Shown: positions 10,767-56,721 of the stretch, piece by piece
How the letters are laid out: each line of letters opens with the position of its first letter
Numbering within the stretch: the stretch's first letter is position 1
Assembly: GCA_947652115.1 (NCBI GenBank)
Contig: OX393568.1
Location: 15,438,746-15,502,745 of the forward strand
From: Blastomussa wellsi
Taxonomy: Eukaryota > Cnidaria > Anthozoa > Scleractinia > Plerogyridae
Reading direction: 5' to 3'
DNA length: 64,000 nt
The notes under the pieces: model-generated
Told to the model about the DNA's origin: nothing
Seen by the model: the letters and a program-made list of their open reading frames with translations, nothing else
Databases searched by the model: none
Program-made: the position numbers and the translations under genes

Positions 10767-10768
10767 AT

Positions 10769-10785
10769 CCCTTGTAGAAATTCAG
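10769..10785 (+). repeat. EnSpm-like terminal inverted repeat, left
   Basis: Seventeen bases are identical in inverted form to 55882-55898. The AT at 10767-10768 is the candidate target duplication. Confidence 0.85.
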
Positions 10786-10790
10786 CATAT

Positions 10791-11015
10791 TTGAAGTATA
10801 CTTCAAATAGCTGTCAGGCACTAATAAAAGTACACTTCATTTGTACTTAAAGTATACTTCAAGTATACTTTAGTATATTACTAGAAGTATACTTAAAGTA
10901 CTATACTTTTCGTCACTTAAAAGTATACTTGAAGTATACTTATCAGGAAGTATACTTGAAGTATACTTTATGAAAAGCATACTTTAAGTATACTTCAAGT
11001 ATACTTTAATAAACA
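10791..11015. repeat. Subterminal AAGTATACTT array, left
   Basis: At least ten copies of the self-complementary core AGTATACT occur in about 225 bp, often as AAGTATACTT, with a few degenerate forms. The matching array at the other end is at 55641-55881. In En/Spm elements such subterminal motifs bind an element-encoded protein; here the BEN-domain product is the candidate binder. Confidence 0.8.
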
Positions 11016-11187
11016 TACTTCATGATCAACAAATGCACAGGCTGACTCAGTTAGACCAACAGTGCTAATATGATTATTTATTAGTAAATTGCCCTCTTCA
11101 GAATAATAATTAATATATCTTTGAACATCATTTTGAAAAAAAATTAATTGGTTCAATAAAAAATGACACTGTTTGACATGAGAATAG

Positions 11188-11210
<23 letters not shown>

Positions 11211-11232
<22 letters not shown>

Positions 11233-11410
11233 GTATAACAATATAATTTGGTTTTATCAACTGGGTTGATAATGTCAATTGGCCACCGTAAAGAGATTCA
11301 AGTGCTGACGTTTCGAGCGTTAGCCCTTCGTCGGAGCGAATCCCAACTGTTTGACATGGTTTGTCAAACTTTATCTGCCAACAATATTCCATTTATAAAA
11401 TGTTTCAAGA
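11211..11410 (-). repeat. Penelope-like retroelement fragment
   Basis: The block around gacgaagggctaacgctcga on the minus strand matches, as I recall, a sequence common in Penelope-like elements of invertebrates. No reverse transcriptase remains. It lies downstream of the last BEN exon inside the EnSpm-like element. Confidence 0.5.
11304..11338 (-). ncRNA. Hammerhead-ribozyme-like motif (degenerate)
   Basis: Read on the minus strand this segment has the order CGACGAA, a short stem-loop ggGCtaacGCtc, then the GAAAC core and GUC. That is the layout of the minimal hammerheads reported in Penelope-like elements. The conserved CUGANGA box reads CCGACGA here, so cleavage is doubtful. Confidence 0.4.
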
Positions 11411-11789
11411 CTTTTTTTATATATAAGCTATTACAATTAAGATTGATACAAATCAATGTTGTGGCTACATGTATATCTAAACGCAAGAAACTGTCAATTT
11501 ACAACAATTGGGACAGGTTTCTTCAAACTTCAAGTCACTCTAGTTTTAACTGATAGCAGTCCTTCGTCTTGACTTAGCCTCTAAGCAGGTTATTTTGCTC
11601 CTCAGTGCTAACTTGATGCTCCTGTCAGATGTCAAATCCGGAATTTTTTTCAAGGTGTAACCTACAAATCAAAGAAACTTTTAGTCTCTAATGTTTGCAT
11701 CTTCTAGAATGTATAAGCCCCAATATTAGTATGTGAACATAAATAAACGATGAGAATGTTTATCTGCACGATTATTCAGTTTTCATTTA

Positions 11790-11901
11790 ACAATTATCCT
11801 GTGAAATCGCGCGGAATATCGCCTGATACTTAGCCGACGAGGCCGTAGGCCGAGTTGGCTAAAATCAGACGATATTCCGCAAGATTGAGCAGGATAATTG
11901 T
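11790..11901. repeat. 112-bp imperfect palindrome
   Basis: The arms acaattatcctg...gcggaatatcgcctgat and atcagacgatattccgc...caggataattgt pair over about 38 bases each, around a smaller hairpin (gaggccgtaggccgag). It lies in BEN intron 5 and resembles a foldback MITE. Confidence 0.6.
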
Positions 11902-11902
11902 T

Positions 11903-12402
11903 TTATTATTCAACAAACTGTGAACGAAATCCATTTTACACCTAGAAAAAGTGTGGCTAGGCAGCAAAAGGGTTCGTATTCTTTTGGGCTTTTAAAATTC
12001 CATGACTTTCCATGACCTTTTCCATGACTTTCTAAAGTTTTCCAGGACCTAAATTTGACCATTTTCATAGAAATTCTCCAAAAAATATCGTGATTCTGGT
12101 TTGATTGTATTTTATTTTGCGGAAAAAACTGCTAAGGTGGCTAATTTTGTACAATCAATGTCATTTTCCATGACTTTCCATGACCCACACTTAAATTCCA
12201 TGACTTTCCAGGCCTGGAAAATGAAATCATAAAATTCCATGACTCTCCAGGTTTTCCATGACCTGTACGAACCCTGAGCAATGTAAGTTTTCGGACGAAA
12301 CTTGACGACCTACGTATATCGCCAGATATCTGTTATGCACGGATGACAGATATCGCGCGCGATGACCATATATGGGCATCGCGTGAATTTGTTGAATAAT
12401 AA
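11903..12402. repeat. MITE with TTATTATTCAACAAA ends
   Basis: Inverted ends at 11903-11917 and 12388-12402 bracket about 500 bp. A hAT-type MITE (11968-12276) is inserted inside. The right part is rich in short palindromes (agatatc, gcgcgcgatg). No coding potential. Confidence 0.45.
11968..12276. mobile_element. hAT MITE, copy 1 (5-bp duplication)
   Basis: This 309-bp element is made largely of repeated ccatgactttcca motifs. The right end reads gtacgaaccctg; the left end is the diverged inverse (aagggttcgta). AGCAA flanks it on both sides (11963-11967, 12277-12281). Copy 2 at 12714-13025 is closely similar and lies in the same orientation. Five-base duplications fit the hAT5 group rather than classic 8-bp hAT elements. 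Confidence 0.75.
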
Positions 12403-12471
12403 TATAAAATATCAGTCAAAATAACAAGATTCTAAGATTGCGTGATCAATATGTTTTACAGTTGCTATTTT

Positions 12472-13417
12472 AAGGTGGCTGGTAGCAGTTTCAATGACTC
12501 AGTACTACAAATCTTTATCAGTTGCTGCTATAACAATGGTATCAAACAAATACCCAATCATTGCTAAATAAGTTGTGGTTATTTTTCTGACATTACTCGT
12601 TTCCACAGCAACAGCATAAGCTGTTAAAAACACCCTTACATTTAGCTTTAAGTGCATACAACTCACAAACGAGCTCGGTGACCCCTATTTTTTAAACTTG
12701 AGTTATGATCAGCCAGGGTTTGTACTCTATTGGGCTTTAGAAATTCCATGACTTTCAATGACCTTTTCCATGACTTCTCAAAGTTTTCCATGACCTAATT
12801 AAATTTGATCATTTTCATAGAGCGTTTCCAAAAATGATCTTATTTTCCGTTTGATTGTGTATTATCTTGAAAAAAATATGTCTAGATTATTTATTTTGTA
12901 CAATCAACGTCATTTTCCATGACTTTCCATGACCCACACCTAAATTCCATGACTTTCCAGGCCTGGAAAATGAAATCATAAAATTCCATGACTTTCCAGG
13001 TTTTCCATGACCTGTACGAACCCTGTCAGCATGCCAACTAGATACAACTTTTTGCAAAGTTTAAAAAAATTCTGTAGTGTGGATTCATAGCCAAGGCACT
13101 GATCCCACTGACTACAGAATTTTTTAAAACTTTGCAAAAAGTTGTATCTTGCCATGCTGATCATAACTCAACTATAAAAAATGGGGGTCACCGAACTCGT
13201 TTTTTGAGTTATAAGCACTTAAAGCTAAAAGTAAGGGTGTTTTTAACAGCTTATGCTGTTGCTATGGTAACCAGTAATGTCAGGAAAATAACCACAACTT
13301 ATTTAGCAATGATTGGGTATTTTTTTGATACCATTATCGTGGCAGAAACTGATAAACATTTGTAGTAATGACACATCAAAGTGTAAGAGCAGAAAAGTGC
13401 TGGAAACCGCTACCTGC
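12472..13417. repeat. Large foldback element, interrupted by a hAT MITE
   Basis: Sequence from 12472 (aaggtggctggtagcag) to 13083 is repeated in inverted order from about 13111 to 13417. Matching blocks include gataccattatcgt/aatggtatc, gcaatgattgggtat and acaactttttgcaaagttt. The left arm is split by the MITE at 12714-13025. Without the MITE the hairpin would be about 630 bp. No ORF is supported. Confidence 0.7.
12714..13025. mobile_element. hAT MITE, copy 2 (5-bp duplication)
   Basis: This 312-bp relative of copy 1 begins cagggtttgtac and ends gtacgaaccctg. TCAGC flanks both sides (12709-12713, 13026-13030). The duplication falls inside the left arm of the foldback, so the foldback is older. 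Confidence 0.8.
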
Positions 13418-13697
13418 AGTTTGCTTTGTGCAAACAACAGACCAAACAGATGCTGTGAAAATTAATTGTGGAATGAAGTGCATAATAGTAAACCTTACTC
13501 ATTATGTTGTCCAGGATGTCTGCATCCAGGCACTGTTTACCATTTTTTCCTCTTAGACTCTTTCCAATCAGTTCATCGTCTTTGAAAAAACAACTTAGCA
13601 AAAAACAGGCAGTTGCAGTAGCTGATTTTTTGGAGAAGGCTTTGGTGAGCAGACTTTCATAGACATATACTCCTTGTCCTGGAGACAGTTCTATCAT

Positions 13698-14304
13698 CTG
13701 CAAGCATTAAAATATGTATGGAAATGAGATACAAGATATAACACATGTATATAATATATGGATTTGATATGCTCTTGCCACTAAAACATATTACATGTAT
13801 TTATTTTATTAGGTACTGAGATTACATTCAGTGCAAATTATTTTAAACAACTGAACGATTTTGAAGTGTGAGTGAGGTGGAAGATGTGAAAACCCAATAT
13901 GTTACTACAGTGAACTGTCTCTAATGCTGACACCTTTGGAACAAGCTCTAGCCGTCCGCCTTAAAGAGAGTTTAGTTGCAGACAAACAAGTTAAATTCTT
14001 CTTGGACAAGCCAGCCAGCCACATCCTCTTTAGAGAAGCGTCCGCCTAACTGTGGTGCCCACTTTGAGAGAGTGGACCGTATTATTGTAGTTCTAGGAAA
14101 TAGCCACCCCAAAGGTCATTGGAAATACGAGGGAGACCAAAGTTTTTAAAGTAAAGTATGAAGCTAAACTGGAATATCCAGAGGGATGGGAGGGGGGGGA
14201 GATTCAGACCAAAAAGCCTTCCGTGAGGGGGGTATTGATAATTTCTGGAACAACACATAGTTTCTGTAATATACTGTTAGTCCCATTAAAAAAATTACTC
14301 TTAC
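13698..14304 (-). other. BEN gene intron 4
   Basis: Bounded by GTAAGAG after 14305 (minus strand) and TTGCAG before 13697. I see no RNA gene or recognisable transposon inside. Confidence 0.55.
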
Positions 14305-14663
14305 TTGATGTTTTTCGGCAATTGCCTTAGGCACTTTGCTGGGTCTGGGGGCTTCACTCTGCTGAACTGCATTTGTTGCTTCCATCCTACACTGATTAAG
14401 TTGCTCAGTTAGCATTATATTGGACTCTCTCAGCTCCCTATTCTCTGCCAAAAGATGGTGACAATTAGCACAGTCTGGCCCACTCCGCCTTCTTGGGAAT
14501 TTGTTGCTTGTTGAACTTATTGGCAGCGGGTTCACTCTAGGCCTCTTCATGCCAAAAGTTGGTCTCTCATGTGAAGGCGGGGGTGGTCTTATTGCCGTGA
14601 TCAAGGTGGATGCCTCGGTGACATCAATGTCACCTGCCAAGTCCAAGCCACTGTCATCAAGAT

Positions 14664-15240
14664 CTGAACAATAAATATAAAATAAAGATTTGCAGTCAGA
14701 CAACTTGATATCATGTCAAAATCAATTCACACGACTGTGGAACGTACCATGCCTTACGGCCACCTCGTTTTTACAGCCACTTTATTTTGGCCCAAACAAA
14801 TTAATGCTCAGTCAGTTAGGCTAACCTTGTTAATACAGTCACCCCATTAATACAGTCAGATTTTTGCGGCCGGTTGGTGGATGCCGTAACTGGGTTACAC
14901 TGTAACAAATAATAAAATTTTGATTTTGCCCTGCACTAGCTGCATCATGATAACAGTCACACATGCATGTACAGCAAAACAGGTTTGCTTATTTTTTTCA
15001 TGCTGCCTGACTACCTAAACAGCTAAACTTTCCTAGGAATGGTTCTAAGCACATAACGAACTTAGTGTAAAAGTGTCCAAACATTCCCAAGTATGCCAAT
15101 TTTTTTTCATTTTTGCAATGAGGTATGTATAGATATCTTTCCGCATTTGCTAGCCTTGCGACCTCCTTCTAACTGGACAAGAGAAGCGAAGGACTTTGAG
15201 AAAGTACATGTATGCTAGAGTGCAGAAAGCCTATACTTAC
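14664..15240 (-). other. BEN gene intron 3
   Basis: Donor GTAAGTATAG lies directly after exon 3, acceptor TTGTTCAG before exon 4. No feature was recognised inside. Confidence 0.55.
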
Positions 15241-15768
15241 CAAAATCTTCCTCCGCATCTTCTTCACTATCACTCATGCTTGAAGGGACTACTATGCTTT
15301 TTAAGTTGTTGAATAATTCATCCTGTTTTCTTCTTTCATCTCGCTTTTGGTGGTTCTCCTTATTTGCTACATGTACTTCTTCCTTCCTCTTAATTTCTGC
15401 TGCCCTTCTTTCAAGCTCAAGCTGCTTCCTCTTGAGCTCCTTTTCTTTCTCCTCAATCTCTCTCCCTTGTTCGTCAACGACGACAACAGTCTTGTTCAGC
15501 TGTGCTAGCTGGCCAAGAATATTCAAGTCCCTTTCATCTAGGGCCTTCTTCTTCTGCGCCTTTTCTTTTTTCTTCTCCTCTTTTTCCTTATCAGCTACCT
15601 GCTTTTCTTCTTTGGTACCTTTGGGTGCTACAGGGCTTTTTCCATTCTTTTTTACTGCTGGCTCTTTGTTTGCCTTCCCTTTTTGCACTGATCCTGATGA
15701 TGATCCACCCCTTTTCTTCGACGTTGTATCCATAGCATTTTTGGCTTTAATTAACTGGTCTTTATCTT

Positions 15769-16367
15769 CTGTTGAATTAAAAAAACATCAGGCTAAATAA
15801 GTAAATAATCAGTTCTATTGTTTTGAAGCATTGACAAACTGCCAAGGGAAATTGCTCAATGATTTTTGCCAATCATTAACAGACAAATCACAATTAGAGT
15901 CCATAATATTATTTTTACTGCCAGGATCATTGTTTGCTGATAAGAAATGCACACTGTAGCAATCGGCAATTGGCATTGATGGATTTATCATTTTTGATAC
16001 ATAAACAGTGGAACCCCTCCTTATGATCACCACATACAACCACCCTGAACTAAAGTTTCGTCGGACATTTTGACCACTGGCACCCAGTTTATACATGTAG
16101 GACCAGATTTTGATGGCCCATTGATGGTCAGATTAAACTGCAATTCTCTACAGTTGCTATTACTCTATAACCTGTTGCACTGACAAACAGGGAGAACCAA
16201 TTATAGCAATTAAAGTTTGCTCATTACAAAAAATAAGAATTTCATTTATCCATAGACTGTGCATGAAATAGTTTACTGAAGAGTATTGGTGTGGGCCTTT
16301 AACTGGTCAAAATGTTTGCCGTATTTCTTAGGTATTGATAAAACTAAAGGTACACTAGCTGTCTTAC
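15769..16367 (-). other. BEN gene intron 2
   Basis: Donor GTAAGACAG, acceptor TTCAACAG. It contains short open frames with no recognisable similarity. Nothing else seen. Confidence 0.5.
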
Positions 16368-16508
16368 CACTCTCACTAAGTACCACACAGAAGTAGTACT
16401 TCTTGTCTAAATACATAGCTTTGGTTGCACCGTCCTCATCCCTTGTCATTTGGTTTTCCGTCACTATAGTTTTGACATCATCCTCCAGAAATTGAACCAG
16501 AAAATACT

Positions 16509-16982
16509 CTATAAATGGAGATCAATTAATAGCAAAATTAAAGGAATATAAGCTTAATATAGTCACAGCTTTTATATTATTAATTAAGACTTACTGTATC
16601 ATCCTAGCAGGCGGATCATCCGACAAAATCAACGATTTATGACCAAAAAAACATCGTATTCATGCATAATTTGTTTTATTTTTGCTTCGGAAGGAAATAA
16701 TTGTCGAATAACGGGTTTTTGGGACAAAATTTTCGATGGACGGCTCATTTTCCTACCGCCTTTCCAGTGAGAAGCTGTTGCGTCTTAATAAATTAAGCGT
16801 ATGGCAGCCCCATGCAATCAAAGACAGAATTTTAATTCCAATTGTTTTACCTAGATGGCATTTTGTTAATGAAAATAGAACGACCCAATTTTAACTTTGT
16901 AAATTACGTTCATCGACAAATGCTGGCGCGCGCGGGAGAATACGGTACGAGTTAGAACACAGTTTCAATGAATATAACTTAC
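16509..16982 (-). other. BEN gene intron 1
   Basis: Donor GTAAGTTATA directly after exon 1, acceptor TTTATAG before exon 2. It holds a GC-rich stretch (ctggcgcgcgcggg) but no gene. Confidence 0.5.
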
Positions 16983-17024
16983 TTGTTTCGCTGTACTTGA
17001 GTGATGGAGTTGTTTTTCTTTTGT

Positions 17025-17353
17025 ACACACACATAGAAAAGCCTGGTTCTAGCGCAACCAATAGCAGTAAGAGTTAAAAATTAAAATTAATCCTCCCACG
17101 GGTAAAAGTTTTCAACTTTCACCCGTGGGAGGATTAATTTTAATTTTTAACTCTTACTGCTATTGGTTGCGACTAGAACCAGGCTTTTCTATGTGTGTGC
17201 CTCTGAGAGTGAAAACAATTTCTCAAACAAAACAAAACAGAAAAACCAACCTGAAATAGACAGCACTCACCAAACAAAAACAAAAAAATTATTTCGGAAA
17301 AGAAACAACCCAGGGAGAGGGGGAAACAAACAAGAGGATAACAGCTTGAAAAA
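17025..17353 (+). repeat. Polinton left inverted terminal repeat
   Basis: Matches 31736-32079 in inverted orientation down to the run after gataacagcttga. The two copies differ by a block of about 13 bp (an extra aatttttaaaaat on the right) and by the length of the terminal AC run. The outer 172 bp is itself a palindrome centred near 17112. Confidence 0.9.
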
Positions 17354-17394
17354 TAATTTTGTGCCAGAATTATCCACGTATATTAGGAAACAAA

Positions 17395-17700
17395 ATGGCC
17401 GAAGCTGACTATTCAAACGATGTGCACGACGGCTCGACAGAGGCAATTCAAAACCTCCCACCCGAAATTCGTGAGATGATATTGAAAGAATATATATCCA
17501 ACAAGATCCAAGAGAGATGGGATCTGGGTTTTTTTGAAGTTCATTGTGAAATTAAAATGCACCCATTTTGTGAAAAAAATCAACGCATCACAAAAGTTAC
17601 GTCTTGCGGGAAAGTTTGTAGTTTCAGGAAAATTGATTTGTGCAACCTGTGTTTAAAAAACGGAAAGAGGCATATTATCGGCCGCCCTGTCTTTCACTGA
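17395..17700 (+). CDS. Small Polinton protein with F-box-like N-terminus
   Basis: A 101-residue ORF starting at ATG 17395, just inside the left repeat. Residues 16-30 (NLPPEIREMILKEYI) resemble the first helices of an F-box. The C-terminal half has four cysteines (HPFCEKN, SCGKVC, CNLC) that could bind metal. If the F-box reading is right it might recruit a host SCF ubiquitin ligase; that is inference from a short motif. I do not recognise it as one of the standard Polinton proteins. It is the outermost left gene and is transcribed inward. Confidence 0.5.
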   Translation: MAEADYSNDVHDGSTEAIQNLPPEIREMILKEYISNKIQERWDLGFFEVHCEIKMHPFCEKNQRITKVTSCGKVCSFRKIDLCNLCLKNGKRHIIGRPVFH

Positions 17701-17902
17701 AATTTCACAATGTTTTTTTTCGTCCGCTTCACGCATCGCCTCAACAACTTGTTGAGTTATCTGTCTGACATCATTCAGCCAAACTGGAGAAGAAAGTTCC
17801 GCAAAAATAACGAAAAGCATGTGAAATATCGTGATCATTTTGAGTTATGCAGTCAACCTTTAATTATACTTAAAGATATTTTTTTTGTTTTTCCCTCAAA
17901 CT
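17701..17902. other. Polinton intergenic segment
   Basis: Space between two converging genes. No supported gene; it should hold both 3' ends. Confidence 0.4.
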
Positions 17903-18574
17903 TCAGTTCAAATTTGCAATGCTGGGCGCCGCGAGTTTTCTCATAAGCTGTTCTTGAAGCTCTTTTTTTATCTTTTCAACATCAGGCAGTTTACTTAAAG
18001 ATGGTTTTTTTGTGAGCTTTGCTCGTACCTTTTCTTTTAACTCATTGTACTGTTCCAATTCAGAAAGAATAATCTGAAACTCAGAATCACTAATGCGATT
18101 ATCAATTAAAGCCTTGGAAACCAGCTTGTCAACACTCGCACGTTTTGCAAGGCCAAGAGTAACAATCTCCTGATGTTTTGACATTTTTTTGTCAAGTTTT
18201 TTTCCAAAAAGAATCAAAATGGAGGAAGAAACAGAGAAAAAGCCACCCACAACACCTAAGGGTATAGCAACGGGTATCCCAATACCTGTTAGAGCAGACG
18301 CAAGTCCAGCACTAGAAAAAACAGCGCTGAGTCCGCCAAGACCGCCGGAAATCCAGTTAACAGCCGTTTTAGTGCGTTTAAATTTTTTTCGAACAAGCCT
18401 ATAGTGGTCAACCTCTTGAGTCAACTTTGCAGCGATTTCGTTCACCTTTCCAAGGCGAAAGTCTTGGGGCATTTGTTGAGTCATTTGCAAAGACTCATGG
18501 CCTTCAATAACAGGGTATATCCTGCTTTGTTCAACATAAGCAGGAGCGCTCGGTAACACGTTTGATTTTGACAT
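17903..18574 (-). CDS. Polinton membrane-associated protein (223 aa)
   Basis: A polar N-terminus is followed near residues 75-125 by a glycine-rich hydrophobic region (GGLGGLSAVFSSAGLASAL, IPVAIPLGVVGGFFSVSSS) that probably forms two membrane-inserted helices. A basic, Lys-rich C-terminal region with coiled-coil character follows. I have the impression that similar proteins recur in cnidarian Polintons, but no function is known to me. A virion membrane-active or scaffold role is only a guess. It is co-oriented with the minor capsid gene just upstream (32 bp apart). Confidence 0.6.
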   Translation of the reverse strand: MSKSNVLPSAPAYVEQSRIYPVIEGHESLQMTQQMPQDFRLGKVNEIAAKLTQEVDHYRLVRKKFKRTKTAVNWISGGLGGLSAVFSSAGLASALTGIGIPVAIPLGVVGGFFSVSSSILILFGKKLDKKMSKHQEIVTLGLAKRASVDKLVSKALIDNRISDSEFQIILSELEQYNELKEKVRAKLTKKPSLSKLPDVEKIKKELQEQLMRKLAAPSIANLN

Positions 18575-18606
18575 CTTATATTAAAAGCAGATTTTATTTT
18601 TAATTG

Positions 18607-19275
18607 TTAACGTATTTCTAATTCAAATTCAAGAGGGAAACCATTGAAATTTAATAACTCCCCGAGTTCATCTCTAACTGATACTGTCACACCGTTTACA
18701 TATTGACCAGAAGAAGTGTCACGCAAGACATTTGGATCAAAATTGTAAGAGATTTTTTCATACGGTTTGCCTTTCACATCGAATCGAGCCAAAATACTTG
18801 ATCTTTTTCCATTGAGCAAATTCTTTTCCATGTCAACAAGGTCGCAGTGAATAAAATAAGTAGATAGGCTGTGTTTTTTGTTAAATATGAACCCTGATAA
18901 AGTTTCTTCAATATCAAACAGTTTGTCAAATTCCTCGCTGAAATTTATACCAACTCGCCCAAATTTAGAATTTTGAAGAATCAGCACGCCCGCGGGCGTG
19001 TCGGCATCTGTAAAATTTATGTTTTCGTATATTTGTAAGGCTTTCTTTAAAGCTTCAACAAAAGTCTCAATGGTGTAAAAACCGGGTTGTAAATTAGTCT
19101 CAAATTCTCTATAATTTTGCTCTTTATCTATTAACGTGACCGTTCCACCCTTAAAATTAAACCACGAGTTATAAAGCGAACAGCTTAAAAGTCTGATATA
19201 GTTTGGCTGCGTAAGGGGCCGGTGAAAATAAACTGTGTAGTCGTTTGAAGGAGCGATGATTGTGAGCAAAACCAT
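18607..19275 (-). CDS. Minor capsid (penton) protein candidate, single jelly roll
   Basis: The 222-residue protein has no helix-rich region and reads as beta-strand-rich. It contains YIRLLSCSLYNSWFNF near residue 27, LQPGFYTIETFVEALKKAL near 70 and a C-terminal VTVSVRDELGELLNFNGF followed by LEFELEIR. That C-terminal pattern is typical of the single-jelly-roll minor capsid protein that forms pentons in Polintons. Length fits. It starts 40 bp from the divergent 19316 gene, so the two share a promoter region. The assignment rests on pattern recognition, not an alignment. Confidence 0.65.
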   Translation of the reverse strand: MVLLTIIAPSNDYTVYFHRPLTQPNYIRLLSCSLYNSWFNFKGGTVTLIDKEQNYREFETNLQPGFYTIETFVEALKKALQIYENINFTDADTPAGVLILQNSKFGRVGINFSEEFDKLFDIEETLSGFIFNKKHSLSTYFIHCDLVDMEKNLLNGKRSSILARFDVKGKPYEKISYNFDPNVLRDTSSGQYVNGVTVSVRDELGELLNFNGFPLEFELEIR

Positions 19276-19315
19276 TTTGTATTAAATAAAAAAAAATAAA
19301 GTTTAAATAATCGCA
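19276..19315. promoter_or_regulatory. Divergent promoter region (AT-rich)
   Basis: Forty bases separate the start codons of two divergent Polinton genes. They contain ttgtattaaataaa and gtttaaataat, TATA-like in both directions. Confidence 0.45.
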
Positions 19316-22104: not shown

Positions 22105-22163
22105 TGCGAAATATAAATTCTATTTATTTTCAATTTAAATAAAAATGTGCAGCTTTCAATACC
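22105..22163. promoter_or_regulatory. Divergent promoter upstream of the major capsid gene
   Basis: Fifty-nine AT-rich bases lie between divergent start codons, with tataaattctatttatt and caatttaaataaaaa. TATA-like sequences exist for both directions. Confidence 0.45.
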
Positions 22164-23453: not shown

Positions 23454-23460
23454 TCATATA

Positions 23461-24063: not shown

Positions 24064-24085
24064 AAATTCACAACTTATACACAAA

Positions 24086-24658: not shown

Positions 24659-24711
24659 CCAACTGCTGAATAATTCCTCACAAATTAAACAAAAATTTCT
24701 TTCAATATACC

Positions 24712-26354: not shown

Positions 26355-26359
26355 CATTT

Positions 26360-44522: not shown

Positions 44523-44567
44523 TAGCGCAGTAGTTTTTGTAGCTACTGCGCGTGCGCAAGTAGCTAC
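44523..44567. repeat. GC-rich terminal palindromes
   Basis: gcgcagtag and ctactgcgc pair across a short loop. The next 29 bases (44539-44567) form a second near-palindrome gtagctactgcgc/gcgcaagtagctac. These are candidates for the Helentron 5' subterminal structure. Confidence 0.45.
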
Positions 44568-44957
44568 TATGCTATCGGGTTGGATGTATGAGTGTCCACA
44601 TTTTCCGGATTGCTTTCGGAGGATTGCTTCGGAATTACGATCGACTTTCGATTTCTTCGAGGTAGAAACTTTATGTTTTATTCATTCGAGTATTCTGTAA
44701 CAAACTAATACGTTTATTGTTTATTAAGCTCTTACTGTCCTTACTGGTTTTCAATCATGTGGTGTTTATATTTTCTCGAAAAAAATCATCTAGAGTTTAC
44801 CGATCCTTTTCCGGAAAAATGCGATTTCTTTCGGAAATGTTATATGATACTCACCACGGAAAACGTTTGTCAACGTTGGAATCTCAGCTCCTCGTGTTCT
44901 TGACACAACTCACACCGCTAGAGCGAGCTCAATATCTTTATAAGGTAAGAATTTACC

Positions 44958-47900: not shown

Positions 47901-50900
47901 AGAAGGTCAGACAGAAGAGCAGCTATGTGTGTAGAGAATATTTTCTTTAAAGCAAAAAAGTTGCAAATGAAAATACTTCTTAGTAAATCAACCATTGCAC
48001 TTAGAAAATGCAAGGGAAACAACAGAAATCTTAATGCACGCCAATTAAAACAGATGGGTGCACTAGATCGATTAATTCGCTTTGATGAAGGATTTAAGTT
48101 TCTTACAGCATTGCGTGGTTCACCTCCATACTTTGAGAAAGCAAAAAAAGATCTGTTTGCCATGATAAGACAACTTGGACCTGCAACACTATTTTGCAGT
48201 TTCTCATCAGCAGAAACACAGTGGACTCACCTTCTTAAAATTCTTGGCAATCTTGTGGATCACAAAGATTATTCTGATAATGAAATTAGCAATCTTAACT
48301 GGGAGGAGAGATGTAGATTGATTCAAAGTGATCCTGTTACCTGTGCCAGACATTTTGATTACCAAGTCAATAAATTCTTAAGTAGTTTTCTTTTGAGTTC
48401 TGCAGAGCCACTAGGGAAAATATCAGATTGGTTTTACAGGGTAGAATATCAGCAACGTGGTTCACCACATATACATATGCTAATCTGGGTGGAGAGTGCA
48501 CCAAAATTCCAGGAGCAAAGTGACAAAGAAGTGATTGAATTTATTGATAAGATAGTAACCTGCTGCAAACCTACTGACAATCCTGAACTACTTCACTTAG
48601 TCAACAGACAGGTTCACCGTCATTCACATACTTGTCGTAAGAATACTAAAAGTGATTGCAGATTCAATTATCCACAGCCTCCCATGAGACAAACAAGGAT
48701 TCTTTATCCTTTAGATAAAGACATGCAACAAAGTGAAATCAAAAGGCATAAAGATACATGGAAAACAATCAAATTTCATCTAGATGAAATGAAAGAAGGC
48801 GAAGAAATTACTTTTGACAAGTTACTCTTGGACCTCAATGTCACAGAGGAAAACTATTTACTAGCTGTGCGTTCCTCAATCAATGCTGCTACTGTTTTCT
48901 TAAAACGAACTCCAAATGAATTAAGAGTTAACAACTACAACCCTGCTTGCCTTCAGGCATGGAGGGCTAACATGGATATTCAGTATGTGCTAGATGTGTA
49001 TGCTTGTGCAGTATATATTGTTGATTATATCTCAAAAGCTCAAAAAGGCATGAGTGAGCTATTGCGAGAAGCTTGCACTGAAGCAAGAAAGGGAAATTCT
49101 ACTATTAAACAGCAAGTTCGAGATATTGGCAGTAAATTTGTAAACAATGTTGAAATAAGTGCTCAAGAAGCTGTGTATATTGTACTGCAATTGCCCATGA
49201 GAAAGTCCTCTCGGCAGGTTGTATTTATTAACACTGCACCTCCTGATGAACGTGTAGAGCTCTTGAAGCCATTAAATGATATCAAAGAAATGGATGATGA
49301 CTGTGAAGAAATCTACACGAGTGGATTGCTAAAGAGATATAGTAAACGTCCAACTCAACTAGAGGATGTAACTCTTGCAGACTGGGTTGCATGGTATGAT
49401 GTAACTGGCAAACCTTATGTAAAGCCATCTAATGATTTAGACACTGATGGCTTGCCATTAGAGAAATGCATCGAACATTATGAGAATGATGATGATGATC
49501 TCAATGATGAAAAGGCTACTAATATCAGTGGCCGTGGTAAAATGAAAAAGAGAAATAAAGCTAGAATAATAAGAAGTGTTTGGTTCAATAAAGAAGCTGA
49601 TCCTGAGAAGCACTATCGTGAACTTTTAATGCTCTATACTGCATGGAGAAATGAAGAAACTGACTTACTTGGTGGATTCTTCTGTTATCAAGACCGTTAT
49701 AAGGCACTGTCTAAACTTATCAAGGAACAAATGAAACAATATGTTACATGTAATGAAGACTTAAATGAGATACAACAAGAGAGAAATAGACTAGAAGAAA
49801 GTTATGATTGTATTGCACCTTTGACTGAAAGTATAGAACAACAAGACTGCAATGAAGGCCAGCAGGACTTACACCCTGACTTCAATGAGAATTACAACCT
49901 ATCAGATGACATAGGGATACCATCTGTTGATTCCAGATCTGAACCATTAATACTTAATGAATTACCAGACAATGAATATAGATGTATGGTACAATCATTG
50001 AATAAAGAACAAAAGGAATTCTTTTATCATGTGCTACACCTGATCAAAACATCTGATGAGCCCTTTTATTCATTTTTGTCTGGAGGGGCAGGAGTAGGCA
50101 AATCACATGTGACTAAAGCCTTGTATCAAGCAGCACTCAAATTCTATAATAGTAGAGCTGGTGATAATTTTGCAGAAATCAGAGTTTTAATGTTAGCACC
50201 TACAGGAAAAGCTGCATATATCATCAAAGGCAATACCATTCACAGTGCATTAGCAATACCAGCCTGCCAGTCACTAAAGACTTATAAACGTCTAGACTCT
50301 AATAGACTCAATTCCCTAAGAACGCAGTTAGGTGGTATTAAACTCGTATTTATTGATGAAATATCAATGGTCGGTAACACAATGTTTAATGTACAAATTG
50401 ACAACAGACTTAAAGACATCAAAGGAAGCCCTTTGCCCTTTGGGGGTGTTAGCATTATAGCTATAGGTGATTTATTTCAGCTACAACCAGTTATGGATGA
50501 TTATATATTCAATGATTTGAAGACAGAATATGGCGTTCTTGCTCCAAATCTGTGGCAGGAACTTTTTAATATGTTTGAGCTAAAAGAAATTATGAGGCAA
50601 AGAGAAAGCAAACAATTTGCTGAATTGCTTAACAGGTTGAGAGAAGGAAAACAGACAAATGAAGACATAAGAGTATTGAGACAACGAATGTTGCAATCCA
50701 ATACCTCCAGTTATCCAATGAATGCTCCTCATCTATTTATACAAAATGCAAAAGTCAATGAATTCAATGACCGAGTACATCATGCTATACAAAACGTAAA
50801 ATACAGTATCAAGGCTCACGACAGTGTGATTGGAGCAACTTCTCAAGATGTCAGAGATAAAATTTTAAAGCAAATACCTCAAGATCCTAGGAAAACCAAG

Positions 50901-52127
50901 CAATTACATGGTTCATTAAACATAGCAGTTGGTGAAAGAACTGAAATTTCATTGAACACCAGAATTGATGATGGCATGACAAATGGTGCTGGTAATGTGA
51001 TAAAGTTGATACAAATTAATCAAACCAACTATCCGTCTGGAATAATTTGGGTTCAGTTTGACCATGATGATATTGGTGCAAAAACAAGGCAGGAAAACAG
51101 ACGTTTATATGTCTCTGGTATTCAGCCTACGTGGACTCCTATAAAACCAGTCACCACACAATTTGCTGTTGGTAGAAACAGAACTGTTCAAGTTGTAAGA
51201 AAACAATTTCCTCTGAGGCCAGCTGCAGCAAAAACAATTCACAGATCACAAGGTGATACAGAAACCAAAATTGTTGTTAATTTTGAAACCAAAAGAGCTA
51301 TTCCTCACATACACTATGTCGGACTAAGCCGTGTAACAGTAATAGAAGGTCTTTACATCACTGACCTTTGTGAAGATAAGATAACTGTAAGTCCTGCTGT
51401 TGAGAATGAAATGGAACATCTTAGAAATGAAGGCAAACTGAAGCTTTCCATTTCTCCTATCTATGCTGCTCCAGAATCATCTATAAAGCTTTGTTTTTTG
51501 AATGCACGTTCTTTGCATAAGCACATTAATGATGTACGTGCTGACATGAATTACTTGAGTACTGATATTAGTGTTTTTTCAGAAACACGATTCCAAATGT
51601 CTGAAAGTGACACCATGTATGAACTTGGAGAATACACCCTCTTTAGAAATGACGCTATTTCACAACACAATGAAAGACCATATGGTGGAACTGCAGTGTA
51701 TACTCGCATTGATTATTATCCGGCGTATCCATACTGCTACAATCAAAATGGCATAGAGATAACAGTTTTGAGGTTTATGGTAATTCCTCATATCATAGTA
51801 ATAGCTATTTATCGCTCTCCATCAATTCCTATTAGACAACTTTGTGCAGCTATAAGAGAACTGTTGGCATTGTCAACAGCAACTTTAAAAGTTTTTATTG
51901 GAGATTTTAATGTTAACTGGTTAAATATAACAGAAAGGTCAACATTATATAATCTCTTTATTACAGAGAATCACTATAGGCAACTAATGTCCTCCTACAC
52001 AACAGATAATAAAACCTGTATTGACCATATCTATACTAATATCGATGAAGATAAAGTAAAGAGCAATATTTGGGAGACATATTTTTCTGACCATAAAGCA
52101 ATTTATGCACTGATTAACGCATTTTAG
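44958..52127 (+). CDS. Helitron protein: 2A, OTU, Rep, PIF1 helicase, endonuclease (2389 aa)
   Basis: An uninterrupted 2389-codon frame. Residues 95-160 hold about four copies of a 14-aa repeat (NSLRGxKFAxxGN). A 2A-like GDVELNPGP ends at residue 362, predicting separation of the N-terminal part during translation. An OTU-like protease follows (MGNCLFRAIAHQLY near 394), then SPEQKAKxNQ repeats, a Cys-rich region and the Rep nuclease: HUH motif GSPHIHMLIW near 1168 and YIVDYISK near 1352. PIF1-type helicase: SGGAGVGKS near 1709, IDEISMV, GDLFQLQP. The C-terminal exonuclease/endonuclease/phosphatase domain starts near 2178 (FLNARSLH, IGDFNVNW, IDHIYTN, SDHKAIYALI). A separate 5' exon (44717-44944) may precede it, but its phase does not obviously fit. 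Confidence 0.92.
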   Translation: MLSHYFVRIIRQSIQVLCPVFSHKAFLSRAEVANKLWTSKTAIGRDGFEHGRRRVMNPVVQQLEMPVNALHVPANQPFSEMLHNPLVTGYIFQRKINSLRGKKFAFTGNMNSLRGNKFASLGNINFLRETELAFSGNIYSLRGTKNACTGNTNLLMGIFTVFRERIEPQTETIFRDKRDYNAMLVDSIVNTENEFVGCHDEHAGDVTNSLLNTDITLNAVTNCSIDDTEELFYKCDRNIPVNHEKCVEVSNLIRACRRSNVRVRCRNRDREPSRVALKRVIKSLKSRKSRLKTKRSIRKSIPVSSVLYNIASNYKQWSLTFDKKQNSFFSNYFERGLIQTMEYNASKRNILLSGDVELNPGPTTPQIICTESRNSVFNCRLRRHGLRALEVGGMGNCLFRAIAHQLYHDANRHLEIRRAGIQYLQNNPERFIESAVLDNTSWSQYLCNMSMEGTWGDHIIMQAIAEAMNLRIHVIESSENFAELTLVQALDLSETTRSIYIGHIGEMHYVSTIELLTESNLPEKVKRNLFENSSETAYARKRKHTSTVTENQINSSSKDERNSALNTVSNEDTNASNKNKKTKSAYLKRKYREANASPEQKSKRNQYQKAYRGKISSPEQKAKHNQRQKNYRSRMTSEQKAKCNEKHREYKSKKKLVSIESAISKFQDMAAEGPVYTCFCCDQLWYRQSVLKAENLKDINPVIHEYFDQRRNSGNAEWVCKTCQSHLVKSKIPPCSVVNGLAFPEKPNFFDLNELECRILAPRIAFQKLMQAPRGKQLKIHGNIVNVPADVASTVTMLPRLLSETATIKVNLKRKLQYKSSALSLNVRPHKVMQAADWLIRNSSLYKDEGIVLNPQWTNQYDKEIEQQHNMNGLYSEQSAESAENSNSHSEINTIDDRDNESENEDDVPAGVTDTMLTGTDFLEDNERQHIFNIAPAEGNIPLSIFRDKYSEELAYPGIFLGQPRSLCKHIHYSDICKSELRRSDRRAAMCVENIFFKAKKLQMKILLSKSTIALRKCKGNNRNLNARQLKQMGALDRLIRFDEGFKFLTALRGSPPYFEKAKKDLFAMIRQLGPATLFCSFSSAETQWTHLLKILGNLVDHKDYSDNEISNLNWEERCRLIQSDPVTCARHFDYQVNKFLSSFLLSSAEPLGKISDWFYRVEYQQRGSPHIHMLIWVESAPKFQEQSDKEVIEFIDKIVTCCKPTDNPELLHLVNRQVHRHSHTCRKNTKSDCRFNYPQPPMRQTRILYPLDKDMQQSEIKRHKDTWKTIKFHLDEMKEGEEITFDKLLLDLNVTEENYLLAVRSSINAATVFLKRTPNELRVNNYNPACLQAWRANMDIQYVLDVYACAVYIVDYISKAQKGMSELLREACTEARKGNSTIKQQVRDIGSKFVNNVEISAQEAVYIVLQLPMRKSSRQVVFINTAPPDERVELLKPLNDIKEMDDDCEEIYTSGLLKRYSKRPTQLEDVTLADWVAWYDVTGKPYVKPSNDLDTDGLPLEKCIEHYENDDDDLNDEKATNISGRGKMKKRNKARIIRSVWFNKEADPEKHYRELLMLYTAWRNEETDLLGGFFCYQDRYKALSKLIKEQMKQYVTCNEDLNEIQQERNRLEESYDCIAPLTESIEQQDCNEGQQDLHPDFNENYNLSDDIGIPSVDSRSEPLILNELPDNEYRCMVQSLNKEQKEFFYHVLHLIKTSDEPFYSFLSGGAGVGKSHVTKALYQAALKFYNSRAGDNFAEIRVLMLAPTGKAAYIIKGNTIHSALAIPACQSLKTYKRLDSNRLNSLRTQLGGIKLVFIDEISMVGNTMFNVQIDNRLKDIKGSPLPFGGVSIIAIGDLFQLQPVMDDYIFNDLKTEYGVLAPNLWQELFNMFELKEIMRQRESKQFAELLNRLREGKQTNEDIRVLRQRMLQSNTSSYPMNAPHLFIQNAKVNEFNDRVHHAIQNVKYSIKAHDSVIGATSQDVRDKILKQIPQDPRKTKQLHGSLNIAVGERTEISLNTRIDDGMTNGAGNVIKLIQINQTNYPSGIIWVQFDHDDIGAKTRQENRRLYVSGIQPTWTPIKPVTTQFAVGRNRTVQVVRKQFPLRPAAAKTIHRSQGDTETKIVVNFETKRAIPHIHYVGLSRVTVIEGLYITDLCEDKITVSPAVENEMEHLRNEGKLKLSISPIYAAPESSIKLCFLNARSLHKHINDVRADMNYLSTDISVFSETRFQMSESDTMYELGEYTLFRNDAISQHNERPYGGTAVYTRIDYYPAYPYCYNQNGIEITVLRFMVIPHIIVIAIYRSPSIPIRQLCAAIRELLALSTATLKVFIGDFNVNWLNITERSTLYNLFITENHYRQLMSSYTTDNKTCIDHIYTNIDEDKVKSNIWETYFSDHKAIYALINAF

Positions 52128-52224
52128 TTGCATTGCAGTATTATTTACTAGGTCAAACAGAATATCTTTCTCTGATTTTATAGCTTACAAGAGACTCCAC
52201 ATTTCCTTTGATTGGCACTTCAGG

Positions 52225-53635
52225 CATGGACACTGCAACAAATTCAAGGTAAGCTCATTATGTTTGAATTCCCTCTCTCTTTATTTCTCTTTATTTCTTT
52301 TTTAAATTTCTCTTTAAAAAATACTTTTTTATTTTTTATTCAGTAGTAGTAACCAAAGAAAGAATGAAGAACCAACAGGTGTAACATCAAAATCTGCATC
52401 GGCAAACCCAGGTGAAGGTGAGAGTGACTTCACTGTTTTTGTTTTTTTTTACTTCTTGTTATAACATTCTTATTTAACTCTTAATAACTCTTAATTTAAT
52501 TAACACACTGCTGTACATAGGGCTGTGATTCAGCATACACTTTTAAACAAGCAACACTGATATAAAAACTGGGCCAACAATGTGATGCATGACATTGAAT
52601 TCCTTTCCCTCTGCAGATAGCTTAACTGGATATGTCCATCAGCTATCAAAAGTGAAAGACGCAAGAAATGAGAAAAAAACAACCTTCTTCAACTTCCTGG
52701 TACAAACATCAGAAACATCATCCCAGTCTGTGGTTTGCTATTCACCGGACAAGAGGAAAGATTTTTTAAACTACCAACAGCAGCATCAGCCAGTTTCCAT
52801 CCTTGGAGGGCAGTTAAGTCCAAACAAGCGGAGCTCATCTAAGATGGATTTCACAGTAAAAAAGAAATCAAAGCTTCAGTCTGTTAAAGTAAACTTCCAA
52901 TACAATCCAAGTTTCGAACACAACCTTACAACAGTCGATAACATATCAAGTCTACTTCCCTTCGACACAGTGGATGTCAAGGTGAAAATCATAAGCAAGA
53001 CAGAAGAGAAACAGAAAGTTATAGTTCATGGAGATCCATGTTTCAAGGTTGATTGTGTTGTGACTGATAAAACTGGAACAATTAGACTAGAAGCTTGGGA
53101 AGCAGCAATTGATGAGCTTCAAAGAGGGAAGTCATATCATATTAAAAATCTCAAGGTAAAAATGTTCAATGACAAAAAGTACATCAACACTAACGAGGAA
53201 TCAATCATTGAACAAATTGATGATATAGTAACAAACACAGATGTGACCACTGGAACGGACTTCCAAGATTCTGTCATCACTGGTAAAGTCATCGCATTGG
53301 ATCTGATTCGCAACCCCTCGTGTCCATTGTGTAATGCCACGAATAATACAGCAAGTGAAGACCAAGAAATCATCAATTGCAAGGGATGCAAATCGACCAT
53401 GCTTTCAGAAAGTCTAGTACCAAAGCTTGTCTGCAAACTATCTATCCTGGTTGACAAGAAGATAACCTCCTATTCTGCATTTAATGATGCATTACAGAGC
53501 TTCTTCATATTAAAGGGCATTGATGCACAGCTTGGCAAGATGTCAGATGGCGAAATTAAAGTTGCTCTTCTAAAAGCTGGAGACCAAACGATGCTGGTTG
53601 ATAAATGTGCCAAGATAGTCACACAGTTCCTCTAA
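52225..53635 (+). CDS. RPA1-like single-strand DNA-binding protein (Helitron accessory)
   Basis: Exons 52225-52248, 52344-52411 (or -52417) and 52617-53635 join in phase. The protein is about 370 residues. It has OB-fold segments (FDTVDVKVKIISKTEEKQ, VDCVVTDKTGTIRLEAWE, GKSYHIKNLKVKMFNDKKY) and a four-Cys zinc site, NPSCPLCNAT then CKGCKS. The pattern matches the C-terminal part of RPA70, which binds single-stranded DNA. RPA-like genes are frequent passengers of Helentrons and would coat the displaced strand. An ATG in exon 1 at 52225 is the best start. Confidence 0.8.
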
Positions 53636-53800
53636 TGGGAGAAATCAAGATAGTTGCGATATTGACTTAAGTCATTGTTTTGTTAGTGCGAGTCATCTAA
53701 TGAAGTACAAGACATTTTGTTTATAGAAACATGTACTTTAATGATGGAACTCACAATGTTATCCCACTGTCTGATGCTTAATGATAAAAATAGCCATTTG

Positions 53801-54000
53801 NNNNNNNNNNNNNNNNNNNNNNNNNNNNNNNNNNNNNNNNNNNNNNNNNNNNNNNNNNNNNNNNNNNNNNNNNNNNNNNNNNNNNNNNNNNNNNNNNNNN
53901 NNNNNNNNNNNNNNNNNNNNNNNNNNNNNNNNNNNNNNNNNNNNNNNNNNNNNNNNNNNNNNNNNNNNNNNNNNNNNNNNNNNNNNNNNNNNNNNNNNNN
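53801..54000. other. Assembly gap (200 Ns)
   Basis: All bases are N. The right border of the Helitron may lie in or near it. Frames reported across it have no meaning. Confidence 1.
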
Positions 54001-54139
54001 ACCAGTATATATATATTATGAGCATAATCAAAATTAAAAGTTTCCCCCATTTATGTTAGTACTTATCATTTTACTATAGGTGCATGATACATATTGTAGC
54101 ATTTTAGGCTGTAGGCTAAATCAATCAACTTTACTGATT

Positions 54140-54455
54140 GTGTGGTCTAAAGAAGTGTGATTTAACGTTAATTGATAAAATGGGATGCAGTTATGTCTAG
54201 TATCACACTTTTGTAAGTGTGATCATACATTAGATCACACTTAATAAAGTGTGATCACACTTGCAATCACACGTTATAAAAAATCACACGTGTGAATCAC
54301 ACTTTTTCACACTTCTTTTTCACACTTTATCACACCACTTTTCACACTAGTGTGAAAAGTGTGATTTAAAGTGTGATTCACACATTTTATAAAAAATCAC
54401 ACGTGTGATCACACTTCGAATCACACGTGTGATCACACATGTGATCACACATTTA
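54140..54455. repeat. Array of TGTGATCACA palindromes
   Basis: The self-complementary core GTGATCAC and its half-sites (tcacac, gtgtga) recur over about 310 bp in both orientations. The style matches the AAGTATACTT arrays but with a different core, so it may be the subterminal region or MITE of another DNA transposon. Confidence 0.65.
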
Positions 54456-54775
54456 TTTTTGCATGGGTTAATAGAAAGGAAGTCATAGAGCAGTTTTCAA
54501 TTGACTGTGTGTTGTAAAACCGAAACCAATTGAAGTTTTATTACTCTGGGCAGTCACAAAGAACACAGACAATCCAATGGACCATTTAAAACTTAGTAAA
54601 GAAATTACATGTAGCTGACTCAAAGCACAGAAAAACATGTGTCAGCAAGTGACGATTGGTTTTGGTTTTACTTCTGGTTGGATGAAAAACTGGTGCAAGT
54701 GTTTTAAGCTAATCAAGTAGCGAAGTGAATGAAAAACCAATTACTTTCGATGGTCATGTGAAAAAAGGCGTTCAA

Positions 54776-55036
54776 GCCTAGTGGCCCATCAGGACGGCGT
54801 TTATCTCCGGTTTCCGTAGCATGAAGCTACTAGCAGTATTTATGGGATGCTAGTCCATCGCAGGGTTACCCCCAGCAGTAAATCCGCCGGTACCCATTTA
54901 TACACCTGGGTGGAGAGAGACACAGAGAGTAAAGTGTACTGGCAAAGAACACAACACAATGACTCCAGCCAGGGCTCGAACTTGGACCAATCAATCCAGA
55001 GTCCAGCACACTAACCATTAGGCCACCGCACCTCCC
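54776..55036 (-). mobile_element. tRNA-derived SINE with long body
   Basis: On the minus strand a tRNA-like head has an A box (tggcctaatggtt, near 55007-55034) and a B box (agttcgagccc, near 54972-54986). The body contains taaatgggtaccggcgg and tgcgatggactagca. As I recall, this body is very common in coral genomes. RNA polymerase III would start near 55036. Confidence 0.75.
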
Positions 55037-55640
55037 ATGTGAAAACCACTCTTTGACTAATAATGTTAAATAAACATATGACTTGTATAAAGTGGGAACA
55101 ATTCTTTTAAATATTGTCTTGGAATTATACCTGTCATTGGTTTACATCTGGTTTGTGAAAAATAATTATTGTTAATTGTACTCATGTCTGGGAAATTGTT
55201 TTGAATGATACTTAGTTGACAACTTGCATTTTATCTAGAAATCCACATAATTTTGGGAAGATGATCTGCTTGTATAATGCCTAAACTAATCAATTATTTT
55301 TTTAATGGTGATTTTAACTTAGTAGATTAGCTGTCAAGCACTTCATTTTGGAAAAATTCCATGTATGCATGTATGCCATTTCTTATAATTTATGTAATGT
55401 ATTGTTTTGCTCACTGCACCAGTTTGTAAAATATGCTGCAAAATACTCACGTTTTGCAGAAAATACAGTTCCTGTTGATTCTCTACCACTGTGATATGAT
55501 ATTATCATAATTTTTCCATTTTTTGAATAGTTGTTGAACTTATGTTAAAAACAGTTTTTTACAATTTCGGTTTTGAATGGTCTGTATTAAGAGATTTCAA
55601 GATTGTAGATTTTTAAATTTACAGGATTATCTGTGCTTAA
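55037..55640. other. AT-rich unassigned DNA inside the 45-kb element
   Basis: No ORF, RNA gene or repeat was recognised. It could be the original right part of the EnSpm-like element. Confidence 0.4.
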
Positions 55641-55881
55641 GAAAAAGTATACTTTAAGTATGCTTTTTTTCAATGGCAACGTTTTAAAAATCCCAAGGTT
55701 TCTAAAAGTATACTTTAAGTATACTTTTGAAATTGAAGTATAAATGAAGTATATTTTCCACAATTTGGTTAATATACTTCGTTTATACTTTTTTTTCGCA
55801 AGTATAAGTGAAGCATACTTCAAATGTACTTCTTTTTTGGAAAGTATATACTAAGTATACTTGAAGTATACTTTAAGTATA
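55641..55881. repeat. Subterminal AAGTATACTT array, right
   Basis: At least six intact AGTATACT cores and several degenerate ones (agtatatt, agtataag) run up to the inverted terminal repeat. Counterpart of 10791-11015. Confidence 0.8.
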
Positions 55882-55898
55882 CTGAATTTCTACAAGGG
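55882..55898 (-). repeat. EnSpm-like terminal inverted repeat, right
   Basis: Exact inverse of 10769-10785, followed by AT (55899-55900). Confidence 0.85.
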
Positions 55899-56721
55899 AT
55901 ACGTCCACATTTTCTCCACCGTGGTCCGTTCTCACACGAAAGGGACGTCCATACTTTCGCACAGCCTGATGATACAATTGAAGCACAGTGCTTGCTCTGT
56001 TGTTCGTGGAGCAGGCACCAAAAACTACCAGCCGGCTATATCCGTCAACGGCATGATGCAACACCATTCGCCATCGTACCAGCTTGTGGTTTCCGTCGAT
56101 GTGCCACACATAATTCGGGCATGGCACCGAGTAAACGCGTCTTCTTATAGGAGGATGAAAACGTGACATGGGACCGTTTGGGTTGTTGTGGTGTATAGCA
56201 CTCCTAACTCTTGATCTTTGAACGTGGAAACCGCGAGCCCTCAGATGACCCATAACCATCGATTCTCCAGCATTCGGATGGCTTCTCGAAATGACTTCGA
56301 CTGCTTGACGAATCTCAGCCTCACTGGCATCTGAAAACCGCTTGTAGTTAATGTTGTAATCGCGGATAGCTTTATATACGGTAGGTCTAGAGACATGTAA
56401 AGCACTGGCAATGTCTGATAGAGGAATTTTTAATTTTAAGAATGCTTCCAACTGCTCTTTGCCGATGGCTGTTCTTGGCCTCCCTTTGGATCTGCAAGAA
56501 GTTAACGTAATGTCAGTAGAACCCCCATTGATGTATACCTCAAGTACTCCTCGGCCGACCATTTCTGGCCTAAGACGGGTACAGGATACATATGACGAGG
56601 GTGGGGTGGGAAAGGGAAGGACAAGAAAGGAGATCTGACACCAAAGAAATGTCGATTTTTTTACAACTTGCAAGGCGAACAGTTCATGTGCTAGTCAACG
56701 ATTTTTAAGGGTCCCTCCCTT

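Follow-up and report, generated by a model that had tools for sequence, protein, structure and literature searches.

A 45-kb block within an integrase-core gene

The locus studied is a stretch of 64,000 nucleotides, hereafter the window, from the genome of the stony coral Blastomussa wellsi (assembly GCA_947652115.1, contig OX393568.1, positions 15,438,746 to 15,502,745 of the forward strand), in which a block of 45 kb lies between the two parts of an integrase-core gene. We are highly confident that this block (10769-55898) is one TRC transposon, an animal element of the CACTA/EnSpm type, inserted in the transposase gene of a second transposon, IS3EU, and carrying nested elements acquired later or earlier. 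One family of elements, its ends, the target duplication, an empty target and un-nested sister copies were all observed. The features that define the block and the split gene are as follows.

10219-10768, minus strand: 3' part of the IS3EU transposase gene (PF24764 profile positions 83-181), terminating in the AT duplication
10767-10768 and 55899-55900: AT target duplication of the TRC block
10769-10785, plus strand: left terminal inverted repeat of the TRC/CACTA element, a CCCTTGTAGAAATTCAG match
10794-11006: left subterminal array of AAGTATACTT palindromes
54470-55881: right end of the TRC element, 99.6% identical over 1,429 bp to a sister copy on contig C5
55645-55884: right subterminal AAGTATACTT array
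55882-55898, minus strand: right terminal inverted repeat of the TRC element
55899-58718, minus strand: 5' part of the IS3EU transposase gene (PF24764 profile positions 1-82) and right part of IS3EU

The original prediction, made on the letters of this DNA, had described inverted 17-bp ends, an AT on either side and AAGTATACTT arrays inside both ends, and all of these were found at the positions given. With up to three mismatches allowed, CCCTTGTAGAAATTCAG matched the window twice, at 10769-10785 (plus strand) and 55882-55898 (minus strand), and at least two such matches arose in 2 of 100 shuffles. The inverted arms of the block, the AT and inner bases included, extend over 43 nt with a 91% match. 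Since about 0.2 exact inverted 17-mer pairs are expected per 64 kb from base composition, the 17-bp ends alone are only suggestive, and it is their position, the arrays and the gene that carry the case. The palindromic AAGTATACTT was present at 25 sites in the window with at most one mismatch, against 2.35 expected and a count reached in none of 100 shuffles, and 21 of these sites sit in the two end arrays. A role of the block as an intron was considered and dropped, its junctions being CCC..GGG rather than GT-AG. Scans for the 17-bp end in IMG/VR (one match) and in GTDB genomes (17 matches) stayed at chance level with no arrays nearby; one of these 18 loci, L015, does contain an isolated array word, at a distance of about 6.4 kb from its 17-bp match.

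The prediction that the integrase-core gene rejoins in frame once the block and one AT are removed was borne out. When 81 join positions were tested (up to four bases from the junction on each side), three restored the protein, and these three give one product because the AT can slide. The split transposase matches PF24764 and PF00665 in Pfam, and the PF24764 match is itself divided at the block, with profile positions 1-82 in the right piece and 83-181 in the left. In the joined transposase, the D, D and E blocks were identified by eye from the translations. P0123, a public protein 404 residues long, was identical to the joined product at 401 of 404 positions with no gaps across the junction. 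Of 1,854 homologues found, the 120 listed were re-aligned: 119 cross the junction, and 92 of the 119 are gap-free in the 32-residue stretch around it, while in the other listed homologues the gaps, where inspected, lie some residues past the junction.

The genome searched comprises 368 Mb in 124 contigs. The search with P0123, in which 103 of 366 candidates were scored and gave 104 matches, detected a full-length, stop-free IS3EU transposase copy at C16:12258419-12259633 (99% identical to P0123) and a copy of P0123 residues 145-404 at C1:19630144-19630923 (98%); the two window halves were matched as well, and the remaining 100 matches do not exceed 55% identity. After removal of the TRC block and of a neighbouring ISL2EU insertion, the window aligned to the C16 copy (L038) over 4,213 bp at 99.2% identity, with 29 mismatches and two gaps, of one and three bases. 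Neither gap falls at a junction; that of three bases lies in the gene, about 100 bp from the junction. The C1 copy (L039) spans both insertion junctions at 99.1% over 2,270 bp. The uninterrupted gene that the original prediction had suggested looking for is thus intact on C16 and partial on C1. The prediction had also judged a chance arrangement of two unrelated truncated copies unlikely, and the exact fit of the two halves at the AT, together with their match to a single intact copy along 4.2 kb, agrees with this. Its description of one interrupted gene stands, but the gene is the transposase of another transposon, and the prediction assigned the block itself to no element family.

The IS3EU host element and its other insertions

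At C16 the unit measures about 7.57 kb; its inverted ends are TATGGGGCGCC, and the duplicated 6 bp read TTTTTG. The window copy has TATGGGGCGCC ends on both sides and is flanked by CTTGCA. Its left terminus was not found inside the 64-kb window and lies about 3.1 kb before it, as seen in locus L060; its right terminus, CCCCATA, is at 58718 and is followed by CTTGCA. In the published descriptions, the marks of IS3EU are TAYGG..CCRTA ends and a 6-bp duplication (PMC12730594, PMC10045372), and because the C16 and window units bear such ends and duplications the split gene was identified as an IS3EU transposase. By its ends, duplication and Pfam matches, the interrupted gene is accordingly assigned, from sequence, to an IS3EU transposon. 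As in those descriptions, the coral units have TATGG..CCATA ends, 6-bp duplications and an integrase-core transposase; unlike the described elements, the window copy bears three insertions and its transposase gene is split.

The three insertions are the TRC block, an ISL2EU transposon and a piece of about 3.9 kb that crosses the left border of the window (window 1-1901 and L060), with AAGACATTT at both edges by eye. The features concerned are listed here.

1902-3938: left part of IS3EU inside the window, 99.0-99.8% identical to the C16 copy
3937-3938 and 10219-10220: AT duplication of ISL2EU
3939-10218: ISL2EU transposon of 6,280 bp with ends AGCGAAGCGCACGAG, at the stop codon of the IS3EU transposase
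4067-5656, plus strand: THAP and DDE frames of ISL2EU
10192-6962, minus strand: SAP/YqaJ frames of ISL2EU

The ISL2EU insertion is absent, without a gap, from L038, and when it is removed from the window the final residues of the IS3EU gene are the same as those of P0123 and are followed by a stop. Its target is A|AT|T with an AT duplication, and THAP-DDE and YqaJ genes are present, in keeping with the ISL2EU description, in which the element duplicates AT at A|AT|T and encodes a THAP-DDE transposase and YqaJ (PMC4482050). In contrast to that description, the window element also has a SAP domain by Pfam. Relative to the 45-kb block it is only a neighbour, sitting where the split IS3EU gene has its stop codon.

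The SAP and YqaJ stop-to-stop frames (6962-10192) form one frame separated by a single stop codon. A 41-bp tandem repeat is present within the right end of IS3EU (58150-58669), with an inverted counterpart inside the left end.

Genes of the TRC element

Two genes were delineated within the TRC element.

32200-36919, plus strand: TRC transposase gene, four exons (~32.2k-33214, 33729-33993, 34574-34686 and 35358-36919), start uncertain
11546-16508, minus strand: BEN-like gene, exons ~16508-16368, 15768-15241, 14663-14305, 13697-13499 and 11662-11546

The exon junctions of the transposase gene, which was aligned to a Montipora relative, are GT-AG at each position. The frame at 35195-36919 (plus strand), containing exon 4 from about 35358 to 36919, has 241 homologues, and the closest named one among the 120 of these that were listed is from Acropora millepora (82%). 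The full-length Montipora relative, P0026, is 48% identical to the window transposase, carries Transposase_21 and DUF1258, and passes the Transposase_21 cut-off (35.7 against 28.6 bits). By eye, D, D, CPYC, HCLLH and FWYED blocks are present in the window protein. According to PMC12730594, CACTA transposases carry two motifs, C(2)C and H(3-4)H, in the interval from the second D to the last E, and CPYC and HCLLH have these two forms. Searches of IMG/VR with the TRC transposase and with P0123 detected no relative.

Four exons of the second gene are joined in one frame through GT-AG sites, and the last exon matches relatives, its junction being placed by eye. The BEN match of the gene is weak (18.7 bits, cut-off 23.2), and three coral relatives also score below the cut-off (14.4-21.3 bits); for this reason the gene is called BEN-like. 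It has 11 homologues; six of these have a named source, in every case a coral or an anemone. Between the ends of the element, the BEN-like gene and the transposase gene are arranged divergently, both in the window and in a complete relative of 13,972 bp.

The TRC family in the genome

Seven exact occurrences of the 17-bp end were found in the genome (three forward, four reverse), while a control pattern gave none, and every one of the seven adjoins AAGTATACTT copies. Two are those of the window, one is a left-type end (C8), and the other four are of the right type, with two each on C5 and C1. The search for further end-and-array copies proposed with the original prediction therefore yielded five exact ends, all with adjoining AAGTATACTT arrays. 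Ends belonging to separate short miniature inverted-repeat transposable elements (MITEs), the finding that the prediction had named as speaking against it, were not seen among them, and one of the ends bounds a complete element. This un-nested relative (C5:10016097-10030068) is 13,972 bp long, has TG on both sides, contains the BEN-like gene and the transposase, and carries its second end with three mismatches. Where the two align over the full length of a feature, it shares about 77-88% identity with the window.

A genome search with the TRC transposase (83 of 127 candidates scored) gave 86 matches. These include the window itself and the C8 piece of 169 residues (98%); four further ones cover almost the entire exon with an identity of at least 86%, and the others do not exceed 79%. 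Two TRC copies on C1, L019 and L020, lie 49 kb apart with identical 30-bp flanks and are both 85.4% identical to the window transposase, which suggests, from these sequences, a segmental duplication or an assembly duplicate.

Elements nested inside the block

The original prediction held that the element had grown by nested insertions while keeping both ends, and this growth is shown by two sister copies, each of which lacks one of the nested parts. The nested features are given below.

17019-17024 and 32080-32085: 6-bp duplication of the Polinton, TTTTGT
17025-32079: Polinton with terminal inverted repeat arms, putative integrase, A32-like ATPase, PolB-like protein and a weak capsid match
36935-54469: block absent from the C5 sister, with the retroelement, DUF4371 piece and Helitron-like genes below
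~36931-43754, minus strand: retroelement with reverse transcriptase (RT) and tyrosine recombinase, the recombinase match weak
39563-40762: DUF4371 piece
44949-53635, plus strand: Helitron/Helentron-like genes
53801-54000: assembly gap of 200 N inside the TRC element

The C8 sister can be followed from the left end, across the BEN-like gene, into the transposase gene at 98.5-99.8% identity. In this copy 17024 is joined to 32080 with a single TTTTGT, that is, the site of the Polinton is empty. The C5 sister at 10276083 passes from the right end (99.6%) directly into the transposase gene (97.7%, deletions counted) and lacks the 17.5-kb block, with about 100 bp between the positions corresponding to 36934 and 54470. 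Subtraction of the Polinton and of 36935-54469 from the block leaves about 12.5 kb. The TRC element looks complete, though swollen from about 13 to about 45 kb, because the nests fell outside both ends and outside the TRC exons as far as these could be defined.

The arms of the Polinton are 99% identical over 275 nt and 93.7% over 364 nt, and Polintons duplicate 6 bp of target. Its integrase scored 31.0 bits against a cut-off of 32.6, its ATPase 35.5 against 22.8 bits, and its capsid match is weak (E 0.0089). One protein, without a match in PDB, we take to be PolB-like from its motifs. An endonuclease VII-type match is present in the middle of this protein (28023-31694; Pfam 1.5e-06, PHROG 2.6e-08).

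The DUF4371 frame (39563-40762), which we take to be hAT-like, lies between the RT and the RNase H/recombinase parts of the nested retroelement and is perhaps a nest within a nest. Elements with split repeats are expected to have a 5' repeat, A1; no 5' repeat of this retroelement was found in the self-comparison. Palindromic ATCACACGTGTGAT repeats occupy 54215-54460, right of the assembly gap and outside the TRC sequence.

Age and order of the insertions

All layers that could be measured are young. Along the 4.2-kb alignment, 29 sites distinguish the window copy of IS3EU from that on C16. TRC divergence was measured in three chosen stretches: the C8 sister showed 25 substitutions in 4,088 aligned columns and 19 in 3,776 (46 and 19 gapped columns, respectively), and the C5 sister showed six in 1,429, so that substitutions between close copies are below about 1%. 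The repeats of the nested retroelement are identical (218/218 nt). Judged from these sequences, the nests may have arrived either before or after TRC reached IS3EU.

Weighing the explanations

Several observations weigh against a single TRC insertion. The ends of the block start with CCC and not with CACTA. Exon 2 of the window transposase is below the Pfam cut-off for Transposase_21 (19.6 against 28.6 bits), and membership of this family is for that reason reached through the relative P0026 only. The window transposase has an in-frame 27-bp deletion directly past the catalytic E region; this deletion is not shared with the C5 sister, which has a 42-bp deletion and a stop of its own, and the window copy may therefore no longer be self-sufficient and need help in moving. 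Both junctions are not on one contiguous sequence, as the 200-N gap lies between them. About 84 bp of the C5 sister are absent from the window at the 36934/54470 junction, and so 36935-54469 is not one simple clean insertion. Finally, the C8 sister was followed only to window position 35860 and the C5 sister only to 32962, just before a gap, and neither spans the element from end to end. The predicted 45-kb unit holds as one element with both ends, but 45 kb is a scaffold length, since the gap at 53801-54000, missed in the prediction, is inside it.

This gap would also allow that two separate TRC fragments or MITEs had been mis-scaffolded across the N stretch, and the C8 and C5 sisters, each with one end only in the stretches covered, could be read in the same way. 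The target halves, however, are exact complements about the duplicated AT and along 4.2 kb agree with a single intact copy, the window has just two ends, and the complete relative carries both end types on one element of 13,972 bp; mis-scaffolding is consequently considered very improbable. Even less credence, next to none, is given to the block belonging to ISL2EU, whose insertions likewise leave AT and whose THAP-DDE and YqaJ frames are next door (4067-10192). That neighbour (3939-10218) is bounded by ends of its own, AGCGAAGCGCACGAG, and occupies a separate A|AT|T site, whereas the target of the block is not A|AT|T, the relative at C5:10016097-10030068 has TG rather than AT, and the transposase of the block is of the Transposase_21 kind. 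A third alternative is that TRC jumped into IS3EU with the Polinton, the retroelement and the Helitron-like genes already aboard, 45 kb moving whole. The nearly undamaged halves of the split gene (401/404 to P0123; 29 mismatches in 4.2 kb) would leave little time for later nests, yet the retroelement is also young and close TRC sisters are about 0.5% apart in the stretches compared, which makes quick nesting after arrival equally easy, and no second copy with the same nests was present among the stretches covered. We regard movement of the whole as rather unlikely.

Under the preferred explanation, a TRC element from elsewhere would have been pasted into the IS3EU transposase gene, duplicating AT, with the TRC transposase presumably acting at the CCC ends. 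The AAGTATACTT arrays probably serve as binding sites for a DNA-binding protein encoded by the element, with the BEN-like protein as the likeliest candidate. The Polinton and the block of RT/tyrosine-recombinase, DUF4371 and Helitron-like sequences would have entered TRC later or at an earlier address. By analogy, coral TRC elements could be two-component transposons, in which the BEN-like protein, as a counterpart of plant TnpA, binds the AAGTATACTT arrays and assembles the ends for the transposase. Plant TnpA binds subterminal arrays, and for the BEN-like protein such binding is suggested by the layout of the genes. This proposal is put forward tentatively, and it is weakened by the scores of the BEN exon and of the three relatives scanned, which all miss the Pfam cut-off.

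Comparison with known elements

CCC-starting ends and a 2-bp target duplication are the signature of TRC, the animal branch of CACTA (PMC1636069, PMC4298943). Three features place the block in TRC: ends that begin with CCC, a target duplication of 2 bp, and a transposase of the Transposase_21 type. SmTRC1 and its relatives, in the parts of PMC1636069 that were covered, share with it these ends, the 2-bp duplication, a spliced Transposase_21-type transposase and insertion into other repeats. The window block differs from the examples of 4.5-9.2 kb in that text by reaching 45 kb through nesting, and by long palindromic arrays and a divergent BEN-like gene, the latter going unmentioned in that portion of the paper. 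Limited full-text literature searches returned no paper for EnSpm, BEN domain and transposon together and two for CACTA with BEN domain; the eight papers listed out of 82 from a wider search lack the term 'BEN domain'. These results have little bearing on the published record.

The nested Polinton resembles Polinton/Maverick elements in having long inverted ends and a 6-bp duplication; a putative retroviral-type integrase, an A32-like ATPase and a PolB-like protein may be further points of likeness. It is unlike them in being nested in a CACTA-type transposon, and its PolB and capsid proteins are without strong profile matches.

All of the element kinds are known, and the locus is a striking example of an ordinary process, the least ordinary part being the BEN-like partner gene beside palindromic arrays. 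IS3EU, 7.6 kb long at C16, here reaches about 62 kb through three insertions, of which the TRC block with its nests is the largest, giving a readable case of transposons inside transposons. For each of the TRC, ISL2EU and Polinton insertions, and for the retroelement/Helitron block taken as one piece, the same genome contains a counterpart free of the insertion. For a stony coral it offers a worked reference for the size, ends and two genes of TRC elements, together with a testable idea on the function of the palindromic arrays; the known picture of transposition is unchanged.

Additional sequences in the window

About 115 bp are common, at 76% identity, to 16625-16735, before the BEN-like gene, and 56887-57000, before the IS3EU transposase. 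A second retroelement lies at 59041-63499; besides an RT, it shows a tyrosine-recombinase match that is very weak (E 0.11). It has split direct repeats, as in Ngaro/DIRS elements, with 63384-63499 equal to 59175-59290 (99%) and 59282-59392 equal to 59041-59151 (98%).

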